From Magnetococcales bacterium (lineage in GTDB: Bacteria; Pseudomonadota; Magnetococcia; Magnetococcales; JADFWU01): a stretch of DNA of 36,757 nucleotides. The notes under the pieces were generated by a model. It was not told the DNA's origin. It did not search any database and saw only the letters and a program-made list of their open reading frames with translations. The stretch is from assembly GCA_015234045.1 (NCBI GenBank), contig JADFWU010000034.1:1-36757 (forward strand), written 5' to 3'. Shown one piece after another: positions 3,978-31,454 of this stretch. How positions within the stretch are numbered: the first letter of the stretch is position 1; each line of letters starts with the position of its first letter. A program made the position numbers and the translations under genes.

Positions 3978-4096
3978 AATCGGAAATTCCGAATAGAGTT
4001 ATCGTTATTATTTGTTGGATAGAATAATAAAACACCGATACACTCTCTATCAAGTTTCATATTTTGATTCATTTTCGTTCGAAGGAGTGCGTTGTC
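3978..4096. promoter_or_regulatory. Shared oxyR / rubrerythrin control region
   Basis: The gap between divergent starts holds a near-perfect palindrome TCGGAAATTCCGA at 3980-3992, which fits the LysR-type T-N11-A box and lies just upstream of the oxyR ATG. A second inverted repeat, GATAG at 4018-4022 and CTATC at 4047-4051, resembles the outer half-sites of the OxyR motif, but its spacing (24 bases between the ATAG and CTAT tetrads) does not match the four-tetrad consensus. A ribosome binding site GAAGGAG (4081-4087) serves rubrerythrin. Confidence 0.45.
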
Positions 4097-4567
4097 ATGG
4101 CAGATAACAAGGAATTGGTCACAGTAAAGAATTTGGAAGCGGCCTTTGCCGGTGAATCAATGGCCAATCGGAAATATCTCTATTTTGCCAAGCGGTGCCG
4201 GGAGTTGGGTGCGGATGATGTGGCAGAGTTGTTCGAGAAAACGGCTGAACAGGAAACGGCACATGCTTTTGGTCATTTGAACCTGCTCTATCCACCAGAA
4301 CAGTTGACCGTGGATAAGATGCTGGAAATGGCCATCGATGGCGAAACTTATGAATACACAGAAATGTATCCAGAATTCCGACATATGGCGGTTAAAGAGA
4401 AAAATGATGCTGCGGTGGAAGAGATTGATGAGCAGATTGCTGAATCAAAAGAGCACGCTGATCAGTTTACGACCATGTTGGAAAAAGCGGCCAAACGGTT
4501 TTCAGCACTGACAAAAGTTGAAGAACGTCATGCAAACCGTTATCGCGACGCATTGAAAAAAGTGTGA
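4097..4567 (+). CDS. Rubrerythrin (ferritin-like domain only)
   Basis: 156 residues starting at the ATG that follows GAAGGAG; an upstream TTG at 4064 in frame is less likely. It is a four-helix ferritin-like di-iron protein: Glu20 in the first helix, E53-x-x-H56 (EQETAH) in the second, a YTEMYPEF segment, and a C-terminal EERHANRY with the second E-x-x-H. These are the di-iron ligands of rubrerythrin, a cytosolic peroxidase using reduced rubredoxin. The classic C-terminal rubredoxin domain is absent; a stand-alone rubredoxin gene follows 73 bases later and probably supplies the electrons. Divergent from oxyR, which suggests peroxide induction. Confidence 0.92.
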   Translation: MADNKELVTVKNLEAAFAGESMANRKYLYFAKRCRELGADDVAELFEKTAEQETAHAFGHLNLLYPPEQLTVDKMLEMAIDGETYEYTEMYPEFRHMAVKEKNDAAVEEIDEQIAESKEHADQFTTMLEKAAKRFSALTKVEERHANRYRDALKKV

Positions 4568-4640
4568 TTTTGGCGCTTGAAAAATAGAACTCTGGCTGAA
4601 TCTAAATGATATCCCCAACAGCTGTGTAGGAGAAATTTAA

Positions 4641-4805
4641 ATGAAACGTTTTCAGTGTGTTGTCTGTGGATTTGAATATGATGAATCCGAAGGTATGCCC
4701 GATGACGGTATTGCGCCGGGCACCAAATGGGCAGATGTTCCGGCGGATTGGGAGTGTCCCGCCTGTGGTGTGGGTAAAGAAGATTTTGAAATGGTAGAAG
4801 TATAG
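4641..4805 (+). CDS. Rubredoxin (54 aa)
   Basis: A complete 54-residue rubredoxin. Cys pairs at C6-x-x-C9 and C39-x-x-C42 form the single FeCys4 site, and the core [18 protein letters not shown] is canonical. It has a ribosome binding site AGGAGA upstream of the ATG. Rubredoxins are one-electron carriers of the cytoplasm. Lying 73 bases after rubrerythrin on the same strand, it is the likely electron donor for peroxide reduction. An Arg/Phe-rich N-terminus and acidic C-terminus match the family. Very secure. Confidence 0.96.
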
Positions 4806-4822
4806 AACACAGCGGTCAGGGG

Positions 4823-4884
4823 GACACGCTTGCTTGCATCCAGGTGTAGTGCTTGGGTGTGGGCAAGTGTGTCAGGTAGTTTTT
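4823..4884 (+). terminator. Stem-loop after rubredoxin
   Basis: GACACGCTTGC (4823-4833) pairs with GCAAGTGTGTC (4863-4873) with a single G-T wobble, and a T5 run follows at 4880-4884. The loop is long (29 bases), so this is a plausible but not classic terminator between the converging rubredoxin and znuB genes. Confidence 0.4.
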
Positions 4885-20166: not shown

Positions 20167-22248
20167 TTACACATTGATATCTTCGATGGATTCAAGAACC
20201 TTTGGATAGGGCGGCCAGTGCTTGCCTGGTTTGATATGGCTCAAATCCGGCATGTCGAGCAGATGTGAAAAATCGATCTCAATAATACCGATTTTATCTC
20301 TGAGTAACAGTTGAAGGCTGTCCAGTTTTTTTGGTTTTCGATAGATGATTTCATCATAGTGATCACCTTCCCGAAGGAAAAAAACCTTTGCCTTGCCAAC
20401 GCCATCAACTTCTTCCACTACATGCATATCGTAGAAGATTTTGTACTCTCTTGATATCTCCAGTTTCTGCAAAATTTGATCAGTGAAATTCAACTGGCTA
20501 TCTTCCGGCAATCCCAGCTGTTTCAATGCGATTCTGGAAAGGGGAATATGGCGCGACACCAGTTCCTCGCTGGGAATGCCATATTTCTTGATGGCTAAAT
20601 CAGCCTTTTCCAAAATGGGTATCATGCCAAATCGCTCCAGCATTCCGGCATCAACGCGCTCTTCATAAGCAGGGAGGCGGATTGTGCGTTTCTTGATGGG
20701 CGATATGTCGTACTCTCGGAGCATATGCGGGCGGATATGGATACCACCGCGTCTTTTTATGCGATCAAGGCTGATGCCGTCTTCATCCCGTAAAGCGACC
20801 GGATCAAAGGCACGACCTTTAAGTCTATTGATCATATCAAGTCGAACCAGATCATTGTAGGAGAGCCACTCCACCTTGATGTCCAGTTCAATGAATTGAG
20901 GTTGGATGCTCACTTGCCATTTTAACGGTGATATGCCCAATCGGGTGAGGGCACCGTCAAGGCTGAAATCAATATGCTTCTGTTTGATCAGGGCGCGAAG
21001 AGTATCCGGGTGGATTCCGCCTTGACGGCGCATATCCTCAATCTGAAAAGGGTTAAACAGTGAACCAGGGATTTTCATCTGGGCCAGTTCTTTGGGCGTG
21101 AGTATGGAACGGGGTGTGGAAAAACGCTTGATTCGCGCTTTGCCGAAATATTTCCGTTCGATCTCACGTGGCAGACCAACACAGAGGCCTTTGGGTAGAA
21201 GATAGGGATTCTTGCGGCGATATGCTTTGTACCAAATGCGGATGTGTTTGGGATTAAAATGACCAGCCGCCGCATCTTGCATCATAATGACCAGTACTTT
21301 GAACGGACCAATGCGTTTTTTATAGGCGCGAATCTCTTCAAGCGCGGAAACCATGTCAGCAATAGCGCACTCTTGAGGGAGATCCCATGCTTCAGGGCCC
21401 AGATCTTCCATGGCTTTGGGAAGATCAATCTTCATATCATTGAGTAGATGATCCCGAAACAGCGTCAATCCACCGTAGCCTTTTCCTGGCACCGTTGCGT
21501 ACCATTCGTGGTGAAGAAGTGCTGTGATGGCGGCGATATCCAGCTTTTTGCTTTGATAGAGTAGTTTAAATCCCATTAAGGGATGAAACTGCATCTCTTC
21601 CCACTGGGAGGGGTTGAGCCTTCCAGGCCAGTTCAAGGTTTCCGGTTTGACTTTGGTCTTGCCCAGATCATGGGTTACGACCGCCATGACACGTTGAACC
21701 AACCGATCTTCATTTAATCCCATTTCATGACACAGCTCCATCTCGTTGAAGCCGGTAATGATGCTGTGATTGGCAGTGTTGGGGTGATGATTGTTTAGAT
21801 CCCGCAGATATGTGATGGCTGAGTCATTGAACAGGTGGTATACATCCCGGATTTGGTTTTCAACTGCTTTTTTAAGTTCTTTGAATTCGGGGTTGGTTTG
21901 CAACGCACAGCTGGCAGCGTCAATATCTTTGGGACCTGAATCAAGGATTTCGCCGATCACGTCGAAAACCTTCTCCATCTTTTGGGCTGCTTTCATCAAT
22001 TGGGCGCGCGCGCGAGGACGTGCCATGATGGACGTGATGAATTTTTTCGCGAACAACACTTCAAGCTGATGAATCAGGCTTTCTGTGATTGGTTCTCCAG
22101 GTAGAAGAGCATAGCCGCCAAAACCATTTGGAACAGGTTTTGATATTTCCAGATTGTTGAGCAGGGCTTTTTTGTCCTTTTCATTATCAAGGAAATATTC
22201 TCGACCATATTTTTCGGCGTTTTCATCCGGGTTTGGTGGAGTCGCCAT
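20167..22248 (-). CDS. HD-GYP-like phosphohydrolase with long unique C-terminus
   Basis: 693 residues. An N-terminal helical part leads to an HD domain: H161, H193-D194-x-G-K197, H222 (HPLMG), H246-H247-E, so the metal ligands are in place. The GYP loop reads GKGYGG (255-260), a Gly where HD-GYP c-di-GMP phosphodiesterases have Pro. Residues about 350-693 match nothing I know; they contain repeated short units such as LGISPLKW and LGLPEDSQ. It begins 3 bases past the nhaA stop region (a GTG overlapping that stop is an alternative start), so it is coupled to nhaA. Activity on c-di-GMP is plausible, unproven. Confidence 0.75.
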   Translation of the reverse strand: MATPPNPDENAEKYGREYFLDNEKDKKALLNNLEISKPVPNGFGGYALLPGEPITESLIHQLEVLFAKKFITSIMARPRARAQLMKAAQKMEKVFDVIGEILDSGPKDIDAASCALQTNPEFKELKKAVENQIRDVYHLFNDSAITYLRDLNNHHPNTANHSIITGFNEMELCHEMGLNEDRLVQRVMAVVTHDLGKTKVKPETLNWPGRLNPSQWEEMQFHPLMGFKLLYQSKKLDIAAITALLHHEWYATVPGKGYGGLTLFRDHLLNDMKIDLPKAMEDLGPEAWDLPQECAIADMVSALEEIRAYKKRIGPFKVLVIMMQDAAAGHFNPKHIRIWYKAYRRKNPYLLPKGLCVGLPREIERKYFGKARIKRFSTPRSILTPKELAQMKIPGSLFNPFQIEDMRRQGGIHPDTLRALIKQKHIDFSLDGALTRLGISPLKWQVSIQPQFIELDIKVEWLSYNDLVRLDMINRLKGRAFDPVALRDEDGISLDRIKRRGGIHIRPHMLREYDISPIKKRTIRLPAYEERVDAGMLERFGMIPILEKADLAIKKYGIPSEELVSRHIPLSRIALKQLGLPEDSQLNFTDQILQKLEISREYKIFYDMHVVEEVDGVGKAKVFFLREGDHYDEIIYRKPKKLDSLQLLLRDKIGIIEIDFSHLLDMPDLSHIKPGKHWPPYPKVLESIEDINV

Positions 22249-22250
22249 TG

Positions 22251-23495
22251 TCACCCTTTCGATAAAGCCTCATTCTGAGGTTTGGTGAATAGTCTCAACA
22301 GCATATAACCGACAATCGCCGCAACGGTAGAGCCTGCCAACACACCGAGGCGCACGGCAACGGCATATGTCGTGCCATCTGGACCATCATAGTTAAAGGC
22401 CAGAGATCCAATAAACAGGCTCATGGTAAAACCGATGCCGCAGAGGATAGATGATCCTAAAATCAGTGTCCAATTGGCACCTTCAGGCATGCTGGCCAGT
22501 TTTGTCTTGATGGTTAACCAAGATGTGGCAAACACGCCGACTGTTTTACCAAAGACCAATCCCAAAGCGATGCCCATTGGAATAGGTGTGCCTAGTGTTT
22601 GTAGTGAAATTCCTTCAAAAGAGATGCCCGCATTGGCAAATGCAAACAGAGGCAAGATCATGAATGCGACCCAAGGGTGTAGATCATGTTCCAGCCGCTT
22701 AAGTGGTGAAACATCACCTTCTCTGCGCGTTAAAATGTGGGATTCTTCGGGACGTGGTTTACGTTTTATGGGAATGGCAAAAGCCATGGTGACACCCGCC
22801 AGCGTCGCATGAACACCAGATTTCAATACGCAGACCCATAGAACCAAGCCAACCACAGTGTAGGCGGTTACCGACATGACATTAAGTCGATTTAATAAAA
22901 TGAGTGTAAAAAACGCTGAGCCTGCGAAGTAGAGTGCTTGGCCGGAAACATCATGGGAATAGAACAGTCCGATGATAACTATGGCACCCACATCATCCAA
23001 GATGGCCAACGTGGTTAAAAAGACCTTGATAGAGGTTGGAATGCGCGTGCCCAGTAGTGAAAGAACCCCCAAAGTAAAAGCAATATCAGTTGCCGAGGGG
23101 ATAGCCCAGCCATTGATACTTTCTGGATTGCCGTTATTGATAGTTATGTATATGGCTACAGGAACCAGCATGCCGCCTATGGCCGCAATGGCTGGCAATA
23201 TGATTTGTCGGGGATCGGCGAGATGCCCTTCCACCATCTCTCGTTTGATCTCCAGACCGACCAGAAGGAAGAAGAGTGTCATCAAGCCATCGTTGATCCA
23301 GAGTAGTAGAGGTTTTGCGATCTCCAGTGCGCCAACCTGAATCACCACTGGTACTTCCAAAAGTCCGTCATAGAGGAATTCCAATGGCGAGTTTTTCATC
23401 AATAAGGCCAAAATCGTGGCGCATATCAATAAGATTCCGCCTGCGGATTCCAATTGTAGAAACTCTTTAATGGAATTACGTGTTTTCTGAATCAT
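22251..23495 (-). CDS. nhaA: Na+/H+ antiporter NhaA
   Basis: 414 residues and about 12 membrane segments. The ion-binding Asp pair D167-D168 is in LAILDDVGAI, preceded by SATDIAFTLGVLSLLG with T136-D137 of the discontinuous helix. VGLEIKREMVEG near residue 79 is also canonical. NhaA swaps cytosolic Na+ for periplasmic protons and controls pH and salt tolerance in the inner membrane. It heads a three-gene set with the HD protein and the Pro/Gly-rich secreted protein, unusual company for this transporter. Confidence 0.96.
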   Translation of the reverse strand: MIQKTRNSIKEFLQLESAGGILLICATILALLMKNSPLEFLYDGLLEVPVVIQVGALEIAKPLLLWINDGLMTLFFLLVGLEIKREMVEGHLADPRQIILPAIAAIGGMLVPVAIYITINNGNPESINGWAIPSATDIAFTLGVLSLLGTRIPTSIKVFLTTLAILDDVGAIVIIGLFYSHDVSGQALYFAGSAFFTLILLNRLNVMSVTAYTVVGLVLWVCVLKSGVHATLAGVTMAFAIPIKRKPRPEESHILTRREGDVSPLKRLEHDLHPWVAFMILPLFAFANAGISFEGISLQTLGTPIPMGIALGLVFGKTVGVFATSWLTIKTKLASMPEGANWTLILGSSILCGIGFTMSLFIGSLAFNYDGPDGTTYAVAVRLGVLAGSTVAAIVGYMLLRLFTKPQNEALSKG

Positions 23496-24762: not shown

Positions 24763-25650
24763 CTAGGAGAAAAAACACTCCACTAAAAATGGCCCTGACT
24801 CAGAGGTGAAATACTGCTTCACACTGGAGAGGTTGCTCTTATAGGCCATACCGTAATCTGAACCAAAAATAATTGTAGGCGGTGTCAGATTGATATCTTC
24901 AAAAGAGTCATTCAATCCTGTCTGCACGCCACCGGCGATCATATTAGCCAATTCGCCAAGGGCATCACAGGCCTCTTCATTCATCTCATGGAACTCTTCA
25001 TGGGCCAACGCACCAGCCAATCGCACTGCAACATGTAACGGGCTGGAGAGGTGAATGCCACCAGAGATTGCACCGTTGAAATTGACAATAGCGGTTGCCT
25101 CGGTGGAGGGTGGCTCATACGGTGTGAAATCCGGCTTGACCAGAGCAGGACCAGCGGACACCTTGGAAGAGAAAAAGGCCAGGAATATATCGTTGACCGC
25201 CTGTATGATGAAGTTGGACAGCTCTTCTTGCAGCAGTCGGACATCAACAGGATTGACCGAAAGATTCGGATCACGGCGCAACTGGTCCAATATTTGTTGA
25301 GGATTCTTAGCGCTGTTATGTACCAACTGTTCAAAGGCTTCATACCGTTCAAGGTCGATGCCGATAAACTTGATACCCAGTCCAGTATCATCTGTGCGAA
25401 TCAGCTGACACTGAAGCTCAATGATATGTGGTTCAGTGGACGGTCCTTCTTCCTGATCACTTTGAATGATCAGGCGTAAGACACAAAACTTGCCTGTCCA
25501 GCTGTCGTCCACAGGCGCGGCTTCCACCTTGGCACCGGCAAAGCTGATATTTTTTGTCTTAACGGGCACAAGGGAGCCGTCAGGAAGCTGAAGCTCACCT
25601 TTGATATGTAATAGGACCCGATGTTTGTGACGCTTTTCTGAGTTTGCCAT
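24763..25650 (-). CDS. PilZ-CheX fusion protein
   Basis: 295 residues. An N-terminal PilZ domain (about 5-115) has both c-di-GMP contacts: R7-x-x-x-R11 (KRHKHR) and N34-x-S-x-x-G39 (NISFAGAKV). A C-terminal CheX/CheC-type phosphatase domain (about 135-295) has the active-site signature D229-x3-E233-x2-N236 (DALGELANMIAGG), which in CheX dephosphorylates CheY-P. The start at 25650 follows AGGGG; an upstream start at 25701 would add 17 residues. It is a single gene, divergent from the short-chain dehydrogenase. Inference: c-di-GMP binding controls dephosphorylation of a response regulator. Confidence 0.8.
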   Translation of the reverse strand: MANSEKRHKHRVLLHIKGELQLPDGSLVPVKTKNISFAGAKVEAAPVDDSWTGKFCVLRLIIQSDQEEGPSTEPHIIELQCQLIRTDDTGLGIKFIGIDLERYEAFEQLVHNSAKNPQQILDQLRRDPNLSVNPVDVRLLQEELSNFIIQAVNDIFLAFFSSKVSAGPALVKPDFTPYEPPSTEATAIVNFNGAISGGIHLSSPLHVAVRLAGALAHEEFHEMNEEACDALGELANMIAGGVQTGLNDSFEDINLTPPTIIFGSDYGMAYKSNLSSVKQYFTSESGPFLVECFFS

Positions 25651-25744
25651 GACCCCTGGCCTTGATGGTGTTCTATGCGGGACAATCCCGGAACAATCCA
25701 TGATAGCACGGTAGTATAGAGATCACACTGAATCAAGAGCAACC

Positions 25745-27029: not shown

Positions 27030-27821
27030 TCAACCGTAACGTCCTGCGATATAGTCCGAGGTCTCTTGTTGTTCTGGTGTTTCAAAGACTTTCTCGGTTC
27101 TGTCATGCTCAATCATTTTTCCCATCAGCATGAAGACACACTCTTCACTGGCTCGGCGTGCCTGGGCCATGTTGTGGGTAACGATCAAGATGGTGTATTC
27201 ACCGCGCAGACGCCAGATTAACTCTTCAACAGCCTCAGTGCCCTTTGGATCCAAAGCCGAACACGGCTCGTCCATAAGCAGGATTTTCGGTTTAACCGGA
27301 AGCAGGCGAGCAATACAGAGTTTTTGCTGCTCTTCCAGAGAGAGGAAGGTGGCTTTGGAGTTGAGCTTGTCCTTCACTTTATCCCAAAGAACCACTTCGC
27401 GCAGAGATTTCTCAATCAAATCTTCCTGTTCAGAACGGGAGATGCGATTCTCTTTTTCGGTGTGGATGTTCCAAGCAAACAAAATGTTGTCACGTATGGA
27501 CAGCGGCAGCGGGTTGGGGCGTTGGAAAACCATGCCCACCTGCTGGCGTAGCTGAGAAATTTCCACATCGTCATCATAGATGTTCTTGCCGAACATTTTG
27601 ATGGAACCATCAATACGCACATAGCCCAACCGCTCGTTAATACGGTTATATGAGCGTAGCAGTGTGGTTTTGCCACAGCCGGAAGGGCCGATCAGAGACG
27701 TGATCATACCCTCTTTGACGTCCAGATTGATGTCGAATAAGGCCTGGAATGAACCGTACCAGAGATTCATGTTCCTGGTCTTGATAGCGATCTTGTTTTC
27801 GTTAGACCCGTTGCTGGTCAT
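27030..27821 (-). CDS. pstB: Phosphate ABC transporter ATPase PstB, degenerate signature motif
   Basis: 263 residues, clearly PstB: Walker A GPSGCGKTT (45-53), Q-loop Q100 (GMVFQRPNP), Walker B LLMDEPCSALDP (D184, E185), H-loop H216 (VTHN) and the C-terminal TSDYIAGRYG are intact. The ABC signature, normally LSGGQ, reads L160-S-L-E-E164. It could therefore not give a normal signature to its partner's ATP site. The second pstB upstream has the opposite defects, suggesting a heterodimer. The start at 27821 follows GGGGA. Last gene of the operon. Confidence 0.92.
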   Translation of the reverse strand: MTSNGSNENKIAIKTRNMNLWYGSFQALFDINLDVKEGMITSLIGPSGCGKTTLLRSYNRINERLGYVRIDGSIKMFGKNIYDDDVEISQLRQQVGMVFQRPNPLPLSIRDNILFAWNIHTEKENRISRSEQEDLIEKSLREVVLWDKVKDKLNSKATFLSLEEQQKLCIARLLPVKPKILLMDEPCSALDPKGTEAVEELIWRLRGEYTILIVTHNMAQARRASEECVFMLMGKMIEHDRTEKVFETPEQQETSDYIAGRYG

Positions 27822-27852
27822 TGGCAATATCCCCAATTTTGTACCGGACGGA

Positions 27853-28644
27853 TCAACCGAACCGGCCCTCGATGTAGTCCAAGGTTTCCTGGTGTTGTAC
27901 CTTACCGGCAAACAGATCCTCGGTTTTACCCATTTCAACCATCCGGCCATTGAGGAAGAATGCTGTCCGGTCAGCCAGGCGCTGTGCCTGCTGGACCAGA
28001 TTGGTGACCAGGATGATGGTCATCTCTTTCTTCAACTCTTTGAGCACATCTTCGATGCGCATGGTGGTTACGGGATCAACGGCGATGGAAAACTCATCCA
28101 GCATCAACAGGTCAGGTTCTTGTGAAAGTGCCCGAGCGATGGTCAAACGCTGTTGTTGACCACCGGAGAGCAGACTGCCCAAAGAGTCAAGGCGATCTTT
28201 CACCTCGTCCCAAAGGGCGGCACGACGCAGGCACCGCTCAACAATCTCATCCAAGTCGGCTTTTTTATTGATGCCCGATAGCTGAGGAGCCAAAGCCACG
28301 TTGTTATAGACCGTCAAAGGCAGACCGACAGGCAGAGGAAATACTACGCCGATCTGACGGCGCAGCGAATAGAGGTTACGCCAATTAGTCACATCAATGC
28401 CGTTGAACCAAACGCGACCCGTGGTAGACATGTTGGGCCGCATGTCATCCATGCGGTTGATGCAGTTCAGAAACGATGTCTTACCGCTGTTGGCTGGTCC
28501 GATGATTCCGTAGATCTCATTGGCCTCAATGTCCAGATTGACATCTGTCAATGCAACGGTATCACCATATTTGATCTCGAGGTTCTCAATCAGAACCTTC
28601 TTGTTTTTTGCCTGAGCCGGTGCATCTTGAGAAGGATTTACCAT
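27853..28644 (-). CDS. pstB: Second PstB paralogue, degenerate Q-loop and H-loop
   Basis: 263 residues. Walker A GPANSGKTS (49-57) and signature LSGGQ (159-163) are intact. The Q-loop Gln is Pro103 (GVVFPLPVG), Walker B reads LMLDEF (P to F at 185; the catalytic E184 is kept) and the H-loop His is Asn215 (LVTNLV). The residues lost are those that sense and hydrolyse ATP in cis. It overlaps the pstA stop by 7 bases (ribosome binding site AGGGGG) and is followed by the first paralogue, which has the opposite defect. Cytosolic, associated with PstC-PstA. Confidence 0.92.
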   Translation of the reverse strand: MVNPSQDAPAQAKNKKVLIENLEIKYGDTVALTDVNLDIEANEIYGIIGPANSGKTSFLNCINRMDDMRPNMSTTGRVWFNGIDVTNWRNLYSLRRQIGVVFPLPVGLPLTVYNNVALAPQLSGINKKADLDEIVERCLRRAALWDEVKDRLDSLGSLLSGGQQQRLTIARALSQEPDLLMLDEFSIAVDPVTTMRIEDVLKELKKEMTIILVTNLVQQAQRLADRTAFFLNGRMVEMGKTEDLFAGKVQHQETLDYIEGRFG

Positions 28645-29507
28645 TTTTTCTGCCCCCTCAGATACATGCGGAAGGTGATGGACATGGCGTTGAACAGCAG
28701 CACAATGGAGATGAGTACCAGGGCCACACCATAAGGCATGCTCGGTGGTACATTTGGAACCTGGGTTGCGACAACAAACAGATGCAGTGCCAGAGCCATG
28801 GTTTGATCAAAAACACTTTCAGGCAGGAACGGTAAATAGAACGCCGCGCCTGTGAACATGATCGGAGCCGTCTCGCCTGCGGTGCGTGATACTTCCAGAA
28901 TGATACCGGTCAAAATGCCGGAAATAGCGTTGGGAAGAACAACCCGACGAATGGTTTGCCAACGGGTTGCACCCATGTTCCAGCACGCTTCACGAAATGC
29001 CTGTGGCACCGCTTGAAGCGATTCACGTGTTGCCACGATCACAACCGGCAGGGTCATCACCGCAAGGGTGAGGCTGGCAGCCAGGATACTGGTGCCAAAA
29101 TCGAAGAAGATCACGAAGGCACCCACACCAAACAGTGCGTGGACAATAGAAGGTACACCAGCCAGATTGACGATGGCCAGATTGATGGCTCGGGTCAACC
29201 AATTGTCCGGGGCGTACTCACTCAAGTAGAGCGCAGCCGCGATACCCAAGGGTACGGAAGCCAGTAGAGCGACAACAACCAACCAGATAGTGCCCAGCAA
29301 TGCCGGAAACAGTCCACCTTCGGTCATGCCGTTTGTGGGGTTGGTGAAAAGGAATTCCAGCGAGATGGCTGGACCGCCCTTGACGATCAAGGTGCCCAGA
29401 ATCATCAACACCGGTGTGATCAACAGTAATACCATCATCAGGAACAGGATTCTGAAAAGGCGCTCTGTTTTCTTGTGCTTTATATTTTGTTGAGTTTCTT
29501 GAAACAT
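28638..29507 (-). CDS. pstA: Phosphate ABC transporter permease PstA
   Basis: 289 residues and about six membrane helices. The inner-membrane permease signature EAA loop is EACWNMGATRWQTIRRVVLPNAISGI. GxSxxIVHALFG precedes it, and TAGETAPIMFTG is the conserved Pst segment. It pairs with PstC to form the phosphate channel. The ATG at 29507 has an AGGGGG ribosome binding site; a frame extension of 13 codons upstream is not used. It begins 10 bases after the pstC stop. Confidence 0.94.
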   Translation of the reverse strand: MFQETQQNIKHKKTERLFRILFLMMVLLLITPVLMILGTLIVKGGPAISLEFLFTNPTNGMTEGGLFPALLGTIWLVVVALLASVPLGIAAALYLSEYAPDNWLTRAINLAIVNLAGVPSIVHALFGVGAFVIFFDFGTSILAASLTLAVMTLPVVIVATRESLQAVPQAFREACWNMGATRWQTIRRVVLPNAISGILTGIILEVSRTAGETAPIMFTGAAFYLPFLPESVFDQTMALALHLFVVATQVPNVPPSMPYGVALVLISIVLLFNAMSITFRMYLRGQKKW

Positions 29508-29517
29508 GGCAACCCCC

Positions 29518-30444
29518 TCAGCCTTTCTTGACGCCGCGAACCACAAGGTCAGCGGTCAGGTTGATCATGAATGTGATCAGGAACAAGAAGATGCCGATGG
29601 TAAACAGTGACTGATAATGGACAGAGCCAACGGCAGTTTCGCCCAATTCCGCTGCGATGGTGGCGGTTAAGGCACGCACGGAGTCAAAGATATTCTCAGG
29701 TAGATTAATGGCGTGTCCAGAGGCCATGAGAACTGCCATTGTTTCACCAAAGCCACGTCCTACACCGAGAAGTACAGCGCCTAAAAGACCGTTTTTAGCG
29801 GCGGGCAGAACCACTTTGTAGATCACTTGCCATTTTGTCGCACCCATGGCTTCAGCCGCTTCACGAAAACCATCCGGAACCGCCTTCAGAGCGTCTTCAG
29901 CAATTGACGTGATGATTGGAGCAGCCATCAGGCCGAGGATCAAACCTGCATTCAGAACGTTCAGACCGACAGGTACGTTGAAGATCTGAATGATCAGCGG
30001 ATTCATGATGGTTAGACCGATGAAGCCCCAAACCACGGAAGGAATGGCTGCAAGCAGTTCAACCAGTACCTTGAGGTACTCTTTGTACTTACCTGTGGCA
30101 AATTCGGAGATGAAAATCGCAGATCCCAATGAAAAGGGAATCGCAATCATCATTGCCAAACCAGTGATGCTGGCGGTGCCAACAATCAGAGCCAGAATGC
30201 CATAGGTGGCACGCCATTCTGAGGTGGGTCTCCAGCGGGGTGATGCAAAAAACTCTGCGAAATCCAGGTCGTTGAAAATGAAACTGATACCTTCGCGAGT
30301 GACAAAAATAAAAATACCGATGATGAGAACAATGGCTGAGATGCCACCGATAAACATCAGTACCTGCACAATACGATCTATATACCAGTCCAGGTCCGGG
30401 CTGTCATCCGTCTGGATAGTATTGTTAACGGCTCTGCCGGTCAT
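29518..30444 (-). CDS. pstC: Phosphate ABC transporter permease PstC
   Basis: 308 residues and about six membrane helices. After a cytosolic leader comes a membrane helix, a periplasmic loop (FFASPRWRPTSEWRATYGIL, the usual PstC pattern), EAAEAMGATKWQVIYKVVLPAAKNG as the ATPase-binding loop, and GVGRGFGETMAVLMASG. The ribosome binding site is AAGGGGG. It is separated from pstS by about 137 bases holding a strong hairpin. Confidence 0.94.
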   Translation of the reverse strand: MTGRAVNNTIQTDDSPDLDWYIDRIVQVLMFIGGISAIVLIIGIFIFVTREGISFIFNDLDFAEFFASPRWRPTSEWRATYGILALIVGTASITGLAMMIAIPFSLGSAIFISEFATGKYKEYLKVLVELLAAIPSVVWGFIGLTIMNPLIIQIFNVPVGLNVLNAGLILGLMAAPIITSIAEDALKAVPDGFREAAEAMGATKWQVIYKVVLPAAKNGLLGAVLLGVGRGFGETMAVLMASGHAINLPENIFDSVRALTATIAAELGETAVGSVHYQSLFTIGIFLFLITFMINLTADLVVRGVKKG

Positions 30445-30581: not shown

Positions 30582-31454
30582 TTATTTGCAGTCCACAGCA
30601 CGAACAGGAGCATAGCCTTTGGCTTTGATGATGCACTGTCCTACGTCACTCAGAATCCAGTCCAGATAGGCTTTGATCTCGCCTTTAGGTTGGCCGTTTG
30701 TGTACATGAATAAGGGGCGGGCGATGGGATAAGATCCGTCGCTGGCGGAAGCAACGCTCGGATTGACGCATTTCTCGCCTTCTTTTGAGGAGATGCAGGC
30801 CATTTTCAGGTGCTCGGTAGCATAAGCCAAACCGGAGTAGCCGATGGCGCAGGGGGTGTGCTCTACGAGATCCACAACGTCCTTGGATCCGTGCATGTCA
30901 CGGGTGCCAAGTTTATAGTCCCGTTTTTTGCCCAGAACAGCTTTGCGGAAGTAAGCATAGGTGCCGGAGTTGTTTTGGCGGCTGACCAGAATCATTTTGT
31001 TGCTCTGACATCCTGGGATTTCGATGCCCAGCTGATTCCAGCGATTGATCTCGCCATCTTCACCGTATACTTCTGCCAGTTTCTGAAGGGAGAAGCTTTT
31101 AACTGGATTGTTTTTATGGATAAAAACAGCCAGAGCATCGTATCCAACAATATGTTGAACTGGCTCAATGCCACGTTTTTGGGCCAGTTTGACTTCTTTA
31201 TCCTTGATTGAACGGCTGGCATTGGCCAAATCAACGGTGCCGTTGATCAAAGCGGCGATACCGGTTCCTGAGCCGCCACCGGTCACGGCAACAGCGACAT
31301 TGCTTTTGATGTTGATATACTCTTCCGCCCAGGCTTGCGCCACATTCACCAATGTGTCTGAGCCTTTGTTTTGAATCATGACGCGTGCTTCACCTGACAG
31401 GGGCAGGGACATGGCTCCAACAACTACGGCTAGGGCTGCCAAAAATTTCTTCAC
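30582..31454 (-). CDS. pstS: Periplasmic phosphate-binding protein PstS
   Basis: 290 residues with a cleavable signal peptide (about 1-23). Phosphate-binding motifs are present: NKGSDTL near the N-terminus, GGGSGTGIAAL, LANASR and SRQNNSGTY. Six Cys in the mature part could form disulfides. The start is GTG, with an AAGGAG ribosome binding site 7 bases before it. It captures phosphate for PstCA and heads the operon. A PhoB-type box lies about 90-130 bases upstream, so phosphate starvation control is expected. Confidence 0.94.
   Translation of the reverse strand: MKKFLAALAVVVGAMSLPLSGEARVMIQNKGSDTLVNVAQAWAEEYINIKSNVAVAVTGGGSGTGIAALINGTVDLANASRSIKDKEVKLAQKRGIEPVQHIVGYDALAVFIHKNNPVKSFSLQKLAEVYGEDGEINRWNQLGIEIPGCQSNKMILVSRQNNSGTYAYFRKAVLGKKRDYKLGTRDMHGSKDVVDLVEHTPCAIGYSGLAYATEHLKMACISSKEGEKCVNPSVASASDGSYPIARPLFMYTNGQPKGEIKAYLDWILSDVGQCIIKAKGYAPVRAVDCK

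Follow-up and report, generated by a model that had tools for sequence, protein, structure and literature searches.

In ABC dimers, each ATP site takes its Walker, Q-loop and H-loop residues from one chain and its signature and D-loop from the other. Asymmetric ATP sites have been much discussed for exporters (TAP, CFTR, TmrAB); the number of sites that importers need is less clear. The E. coli phosphate importer PstSCAB, in its 2026 cryo-EM entries (9k3s/9k3x), has two PstB chains that share one sequence. The tandems of Bacillota have two pstB genes per pst system (pstB1/pstB2 in E. faecalis and Listeria, pstBA/pstBB in B. subtilis); all ATPase motifs are intact in both E. faecalis copies (PMC12096839), and for B. 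subtilis there is a model of a mixed PstBA–PstBB complex (PMC11466899). Here we describe a locus from a Magnetococcales bacterium which has PstS, PstC, PstA and PstB-fold ATPases in common with the E. coli system and, like the Bacillota tandems, carries two pstB genes, but in which these are paralogues with complementary motif losses. From their motifs we think it likely that the locus encodes a Pst importer with an obligate PstB heterodimer, in which one ATP site is competent and the other degenerate.

The operon and its two ATPases

The window, by which we mean the whole stretch of 36,757 nt that was analysed, contains the gene order pstS–pstC–pstA–pstB(proximal)–pstB(distal) on the minus strand. 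The PstS-type phosphate-binding protein (30582–31454, –; TIGR02136), the PstC permease (29518–30444, –; TIGR02138) and the PstA permease (28638–29546, –; TIGR00974) all score above their NCBIfam cut-offs, which are equivalog cut-offs for the two permeases and a subfamily cut-off for PstS, and among solved structures PstS is closest to phosphate-binding proteins (4pqj/4omb, ‘Phosphate binding protein’, E 4e-44). The longest pstA ORF opens with a TTG at 29546, but translation more probably starts from an ATG at about 29507. The first 7 nt of the proximal pstB are shared with the end of pstA, an overlap found in many relatives. The best match of both ATPases is the PstB equivalog TIGR00972, below its cut-off (288 and 320 versus 343 bits), and permeases of this asymmetric class are 31–44% identical to canonical PstC and PstA. 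The PstS, PstC and PstA families indicate that the operon probably encodes a Pst-type importer, presumably of phosphate.

The two ATPases, each of 263 aa, lie on the minus strand at 27853–28644 (proximal) and 27030–27821 (distal), exactly where the original prediction had placed them. The proximal protein retains Walker A (GPANSGKTS), LSGGQ (159–163) and D183/E184, and has Pro103 in its Q-loop (GVVFP103LPVG) and Asn215 in its H-loop (VTN215); the distal protein retains Walker A (GPSGCGKTT), the Q-loop (GMVFQ100RPNP), D184/E185 and the H-loop (VTH216), and has LSLEE (160–164) as its signature. Each motif residue named in that prediction proved correct, and the proximal protein carries further changes beyond its list: DEP has become DEF185, the D-loop SALD has become IAVD, and the Q-loop has been rewritten (FPLPVGLP). 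Single-chain AlphaFold models (pLDDT 88.9 for proximal, 89.6 for distal) have E. coli PstB (9k3s/9k3x) as their nearest solved structure, at ~40% identity for the proximal and 45% for the distal protein, and both are confidently predicted ABC ATPases.

The same genome, which is 93% complete and gave no match above the PstB cut-off, has a second operon of this kind on contig C35, with a pair 77% and 82% identical to the first and identical motif changes. Downstream of this second operon are two similar PhoB-like regulators in tandem (L041:2715–3497 and 4064–4858, –). Elsewhere in the window, a 695-aa frame without a Pfam match (20167–22254, –) adjoins an NhaA-type Na+/H+ antiporter gene (22251–23495), and the C-terminal half of a protein encoded at 24763–25701 (–) is CheX-like (NCBIfam E 9e-13, below the model cut-off).

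Distribution and conservation of the pair

Among 48 genomes of the order, a search that was unbiased as to motifs recovered tandem pairs in nine family-level groups and a single canonical PstB in four, with one genome holding both. Of the 23 Magnetococcales genomes that carry the pair, 22 have no canonical PstB, while 15 other genomes have canonical PstB only; the Fisher p for pair versus canonical is 4e-5 when kinship is ignored and 0.09 when counted by family. A proximal profile run against 398 genomes of the phylum scored orthologues at 487–519 bits and all else at 279 bits or less. A contig scan with the proximal alignment yielded 80 loci, titled as Planctomycetota, Gemmatimonadota, Acidobacteria, Gamma- and Betaproteobacteria, Binatia, Rhodothermales, Bacteroidetes, Nitrospirales, Poribacteria, Eisenbacteria, Verrucomicrobia and deltaproteobacterial groups; most of these loci are metagenome-assembled, and individual taxon labels may be wrong. 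Every readable locus showed the paired pattern. The pair occurs in about a dozen phyla as well as across the order Magnetococcales. Outside Magnetococcales, 20 of the 26 sampled genomes with the pair have no PstB above the cut-off; with canonical PstB usually missing, the pair is usually the sole candidate Pst engine.

Of 106 loci, 104 have the distal gene next to the proximal one, downstream of it and on the same strand; of the remaining two, one is a contig end and the other a genome (G025) with the genes on separate contigs. The separated genes of that genome (L064 and L065; G025:C599 and C200) both retain the diagnostic changes. No natural proximal–distal fusion was seen among the locus reading frames listed, and a plasmid collection gave no close distal relative, only matches of less than 60% identity that were labelled as ordinary PstB or carried no annotation.

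We aligned 107 proximal and 100 distal sequences with 33 canonical PstBs, the Listeria tandem copies among the last. The Q-loop residue is Pro in 107/107 proximal copies and Gln in 100/100 distal and 33/33 canonical ones; the H-loop residue, with the same complete counts, is Asn in the proximal class and His in the distal and canonical classes, and the signature pair is Leu-Glu in all 100 distal copies and Gly-Gly in all 107 proximal and 33 canonical sequences. LSGGQ is found in every proximal copy (107/107), and Q, D, E and H are retained in all 100 distal copies; the catalytic Glu is present in every sequence of the alignment (E184 in 107/107 proximal copies). Because GGQQQRLT was one of the two scan patterns, LSGGQ was partly selected in the proximal copies that came from the contig scan, while Pro, Asn and the distal Leu-Glu were in neither pattern. 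Twelve of the 62 positions near-invariant in canonical PstB are altered in the proximal class and six in the distal class; by our own assignment of positions to motifs, ten of the twelve lie in Walker A, Q-loop, Walker B/D-loop or H-loop segments, and three of the six in or just after the signature. All Magnetococcales proximal copies read GVVFPLPVG / LSGGQ / LDEFSIAVDP / VTN, and the distal copies, where of sufficient length, all give GMVFQRPNP / LSLEE (once LSLEA) / DEPCSALDP / VTH; a deeper clade has LQLEQ as its distal signature.

By these counts, the paired degeneracy that the original prediction had proposed to look for in other tandem pstB operons recurs with no exception within the clade. 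Tandems with every motif intact in both copies, which it had named as evidence against itself, are absent from the clade and were seen only in Bacillota (Listeria, E. faecalis). Unlike the asymmetric pair, the Listeria copies have all motifs intact in the alignment and group with canonical PstBs in the tree, which makes theirs a different tandem arrangement. These two controls rule out the motif pattern as a generic trait of tandem pstB genes, and chance or sequencing error is ruled out by the invariance of the same residues in about 100 pairs and in the second operon.

In a maximum-likelihood tree, built by a quick method and rooted on a very long outgroup, the proximal class forms one clade (support 100) and the distal class another (support 98). 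Both clades span the same phyla and divide deeply along the same line, with a Poribacteria/Verrucomicrobia/Desulfobacteraceae-type group on one side and all other members on the other, which suggests that proximal and distal are two ancient PstB paralogues. Both genes are under strong purifying selection: dN is about 0.14–0.27 for both with dS near saturation, and between the two pairs of the window’s genome it is 0.14–0.19 with dS at or near saturation, values like those of pstA and pstC. The evolutionary distances of proximal and distal correlate at 0.73, no higher than with the permeases (0.69–0.75), and so show only joint inheritance; since the operon genes all correlate at 0.69–0.75 save PstC–PstA (0.92), the mirror-tree approach was rejected as uninformative about interaction.

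Other PstB-like genes were encountered in the same analysis. The distal clade also contains, on a long branch, a broken lone gene from a Magnetococcales genome (L068:4064–4906; G027:C75 68072–68821), in which the Walker A Lys is retained and the Q-loop, signature, Walker B Glu (to Asp) and H-loop are altered. In Poribacteria loci the distal gene is followed, ~1 kb further on, by a third PstB-like ATPase (L144:8528–9292, with counterparts in L146, L149, L150, L152 and L157), its motifs being mostly GMVFRKPIP, LSIGQQQ and FATNKR; in L144 an extra permease gene stands between the two. Another degenerate PstB-like ATPase is encoded at L153:7462–8313.

A putative heterodimeric engine and its alternatives

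We propose that the ATPase is an obligate heterodimer of the two paralogues that powers a PstSCA phosphate importer. A homodimer of either chain should be crippled, as had been predicted, since both of its sites would be short of a key element (the Q-loop Gln and H-loop His in the proximal chain, the signature Gly-Gly in the distal), whereas a heterodimer would restore one site. This site would combine the distal Walker A, Q-loop, Walker B and H-loop with the proximal LSGGQ and D-loop and could hydrolyse ATP. The second would combine the proximal Walker A and B, with neither Q-loop Gln nor H-loop His, with the distal LSLEE helix; it would at most bind ATP and help to keep the dimer closed, and each PstA–PstC transport stroke would be driven by hydrolysis at one site. 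We infer the formation of the heterodimer, the identity of the hydrolysing site and the ATP stoichiometry from the motif complement.

This interpretation, as a whole, is supported by the recurrence of the pair, its fixed gene order and the usual lack of canonical PstB, and some of its parts call for qualification. The site described as fully consensus is complete in Walker A, Q-loop, Walker B, catalytic Glu, H-loop and LSGGQ, but its D-loop would be the proximal IAVD and not SALD, a point that counts against the heterodimer. The claimed likeness to TM287/288 and CFTR extends to the pattern of one consensus and one degenerate site, and stops at the degenerate site itself, which retains Walker A, the Walker B Asp and the catalytic Glu; with this Glu in place, some hydrolysis there is possible. 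We also count against the heterodimer the co-occurrence of canonical PstB in six of the 26 sampled genomes and in one Magnetococcales genome, and the lack, in both operons of the window’s genome, of the phoU-type gene that most relatives carry between pstS and pstC.

The coupling helices of both permeases are clade-specific: PstA has FREACWNMGATRWQT and PstC has KAVPDxYREAAEA, with F for Y in the window’s PstC. At the equivalent position PstA has W189 (104 of 105) and PstC has E198 (92 of 100 non-gap), where the canonical proteins, sampled here by only 9–10 sequences, have mostly Leu, Arg or Tyr. These residues are compatible with each permease docking its own ATPase, which is suggestive only; with both helices clade-specific and a canonical n of 9–10, assignment of a particular ATPase to a particular permease was dropped.

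More than 50 relatives carry a gene for a protein of ~360 aa between pstS and pstC (e.g. L055:2067–3152, L081:3022–4125, L079:3088–4146). All five of the products tested have PhoU domains, and in three of the five the C-terminal segment matches a low-molecular-weight phosphatase just above the Pfam threshold; the CX5R catalytic loop was found in none of the 55 such proteins examined. This fusion gene is missing from both operons of the window’s genome, in which no orthologue was found. PhoB-like response regulator genes follow several of the asymmetric operons.

Such neighbours, in or near many asymmetric operons, are what one might expect if the proximal protein were a regulatory pseudo-ATPase, for example a link to PhoU/PhoR signalling, and a distal homodimer drove transport, and the proximal lack of Q-loop Gln and H-loop His would fit that role. 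We nonetheless consider it unlikely: with the signature Gly-Gly gone from 100/100 distal copies a distal homodimer would have no normal ATP site, and the signature that the distal protein is missing is exactly the one that the proximal protein retains. It is likewise improbable that the transporter works as proposed on an oxyanion other than phosphate. The sub-cut-off PstB scores of both ATPases and the low identity of the permeases to canonical PstC and PstA would allow another substrate, whereas the family cut-offs passed by PstC, PstA and PstS, the solved relatives of PstS, the position of the pair as usually the genome’s only Pst ATPase, and the PhoU-domain and PhoB-like genes adjoining many of these operons all point to phosphate. 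We give very little credence to separate homodimers, or to one chain being an accessory, dose-dependent copy as in E. faecalis, where the tandem pstB1 and pstB2 genes have non-equivalent roles (PMC12096839); the E. faecalis and Listeria copies retain all motifs and here neither chain does, and invariant complementarity would have no obvious reason if the chains never shared a dimer. That both genes are decaying duplicates, as the motifs each lacks for a homodimer and the lone Magnetococcales gene with nearly all motifs broken might suggest, is barely conceivable and is ruled out by dN/dS and conservation, with invariant substitutions in about a dozen phyla and a fixed operon position; the shared paired losses look like a real design.

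The heterodimer reading can be widened, although we hold the wider form only tentatively and would not favour it. The operons would then represent a second class of Pst importer that spans phyla, its homodimeric PstB having been swapped early for an obligate heterodimer using one ATP per cycle, with each ATPase docked on a specific permease half, the silenced ATP site regulatory and, in many lineages, PhoU fused to a phosphatase-like segment without its catalytic loop.

Comparison with known asymmetric transporters

Heterodimers with one consensus and one degenerate site occur in TM287/288, TmrAB and BmrCD, which are exporters, and in CFTR, which is a channel, whereas Pst is an importer and its heterodimer is predicted. 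In asymmetric exporters, a missing catalytic Glu is a hallmark of the degenerate site (PMC7544095); in the asymmetric pstB pair the Glu is retained, and the losses are instead the Q-loop Gln, the H-loop His and the signature Gly-Gly.

Importers with two different ATPase domains are likewise on record. DppBCDF, which resembles OppBCDF in this respect, has been found with one nucleotide analogue bound, in DppF (PMC12136057), and RbsA and NupO have one degenerate site each (PMC11466899). Dpp and Opp are peptide systems, RbsA and NupO are sugar/nucleoside systems with the ATPase domains fused in one chain, and none of them is a Pst system. Our searches of the open-access literature turned up no account of an asymmetric Pst ATPase. 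Thus the principle of an asymmetric importer is already known, and its occurrence in Pst looks new.

Accumulibacter-type and Thiodiazotropha genomes are among the many environmental lineages in which automatic annotation as ‘PstB’ conceals this distinct class. A natural importer whose asymmetry appears to be ancient and fixed would permit a direct comparison with the symmetric, structurally solved PstSCAB of E. coli, and asymmetric versus symmetric Pst would provide a clean test of one-site against two-site ATP use with the same substrate.
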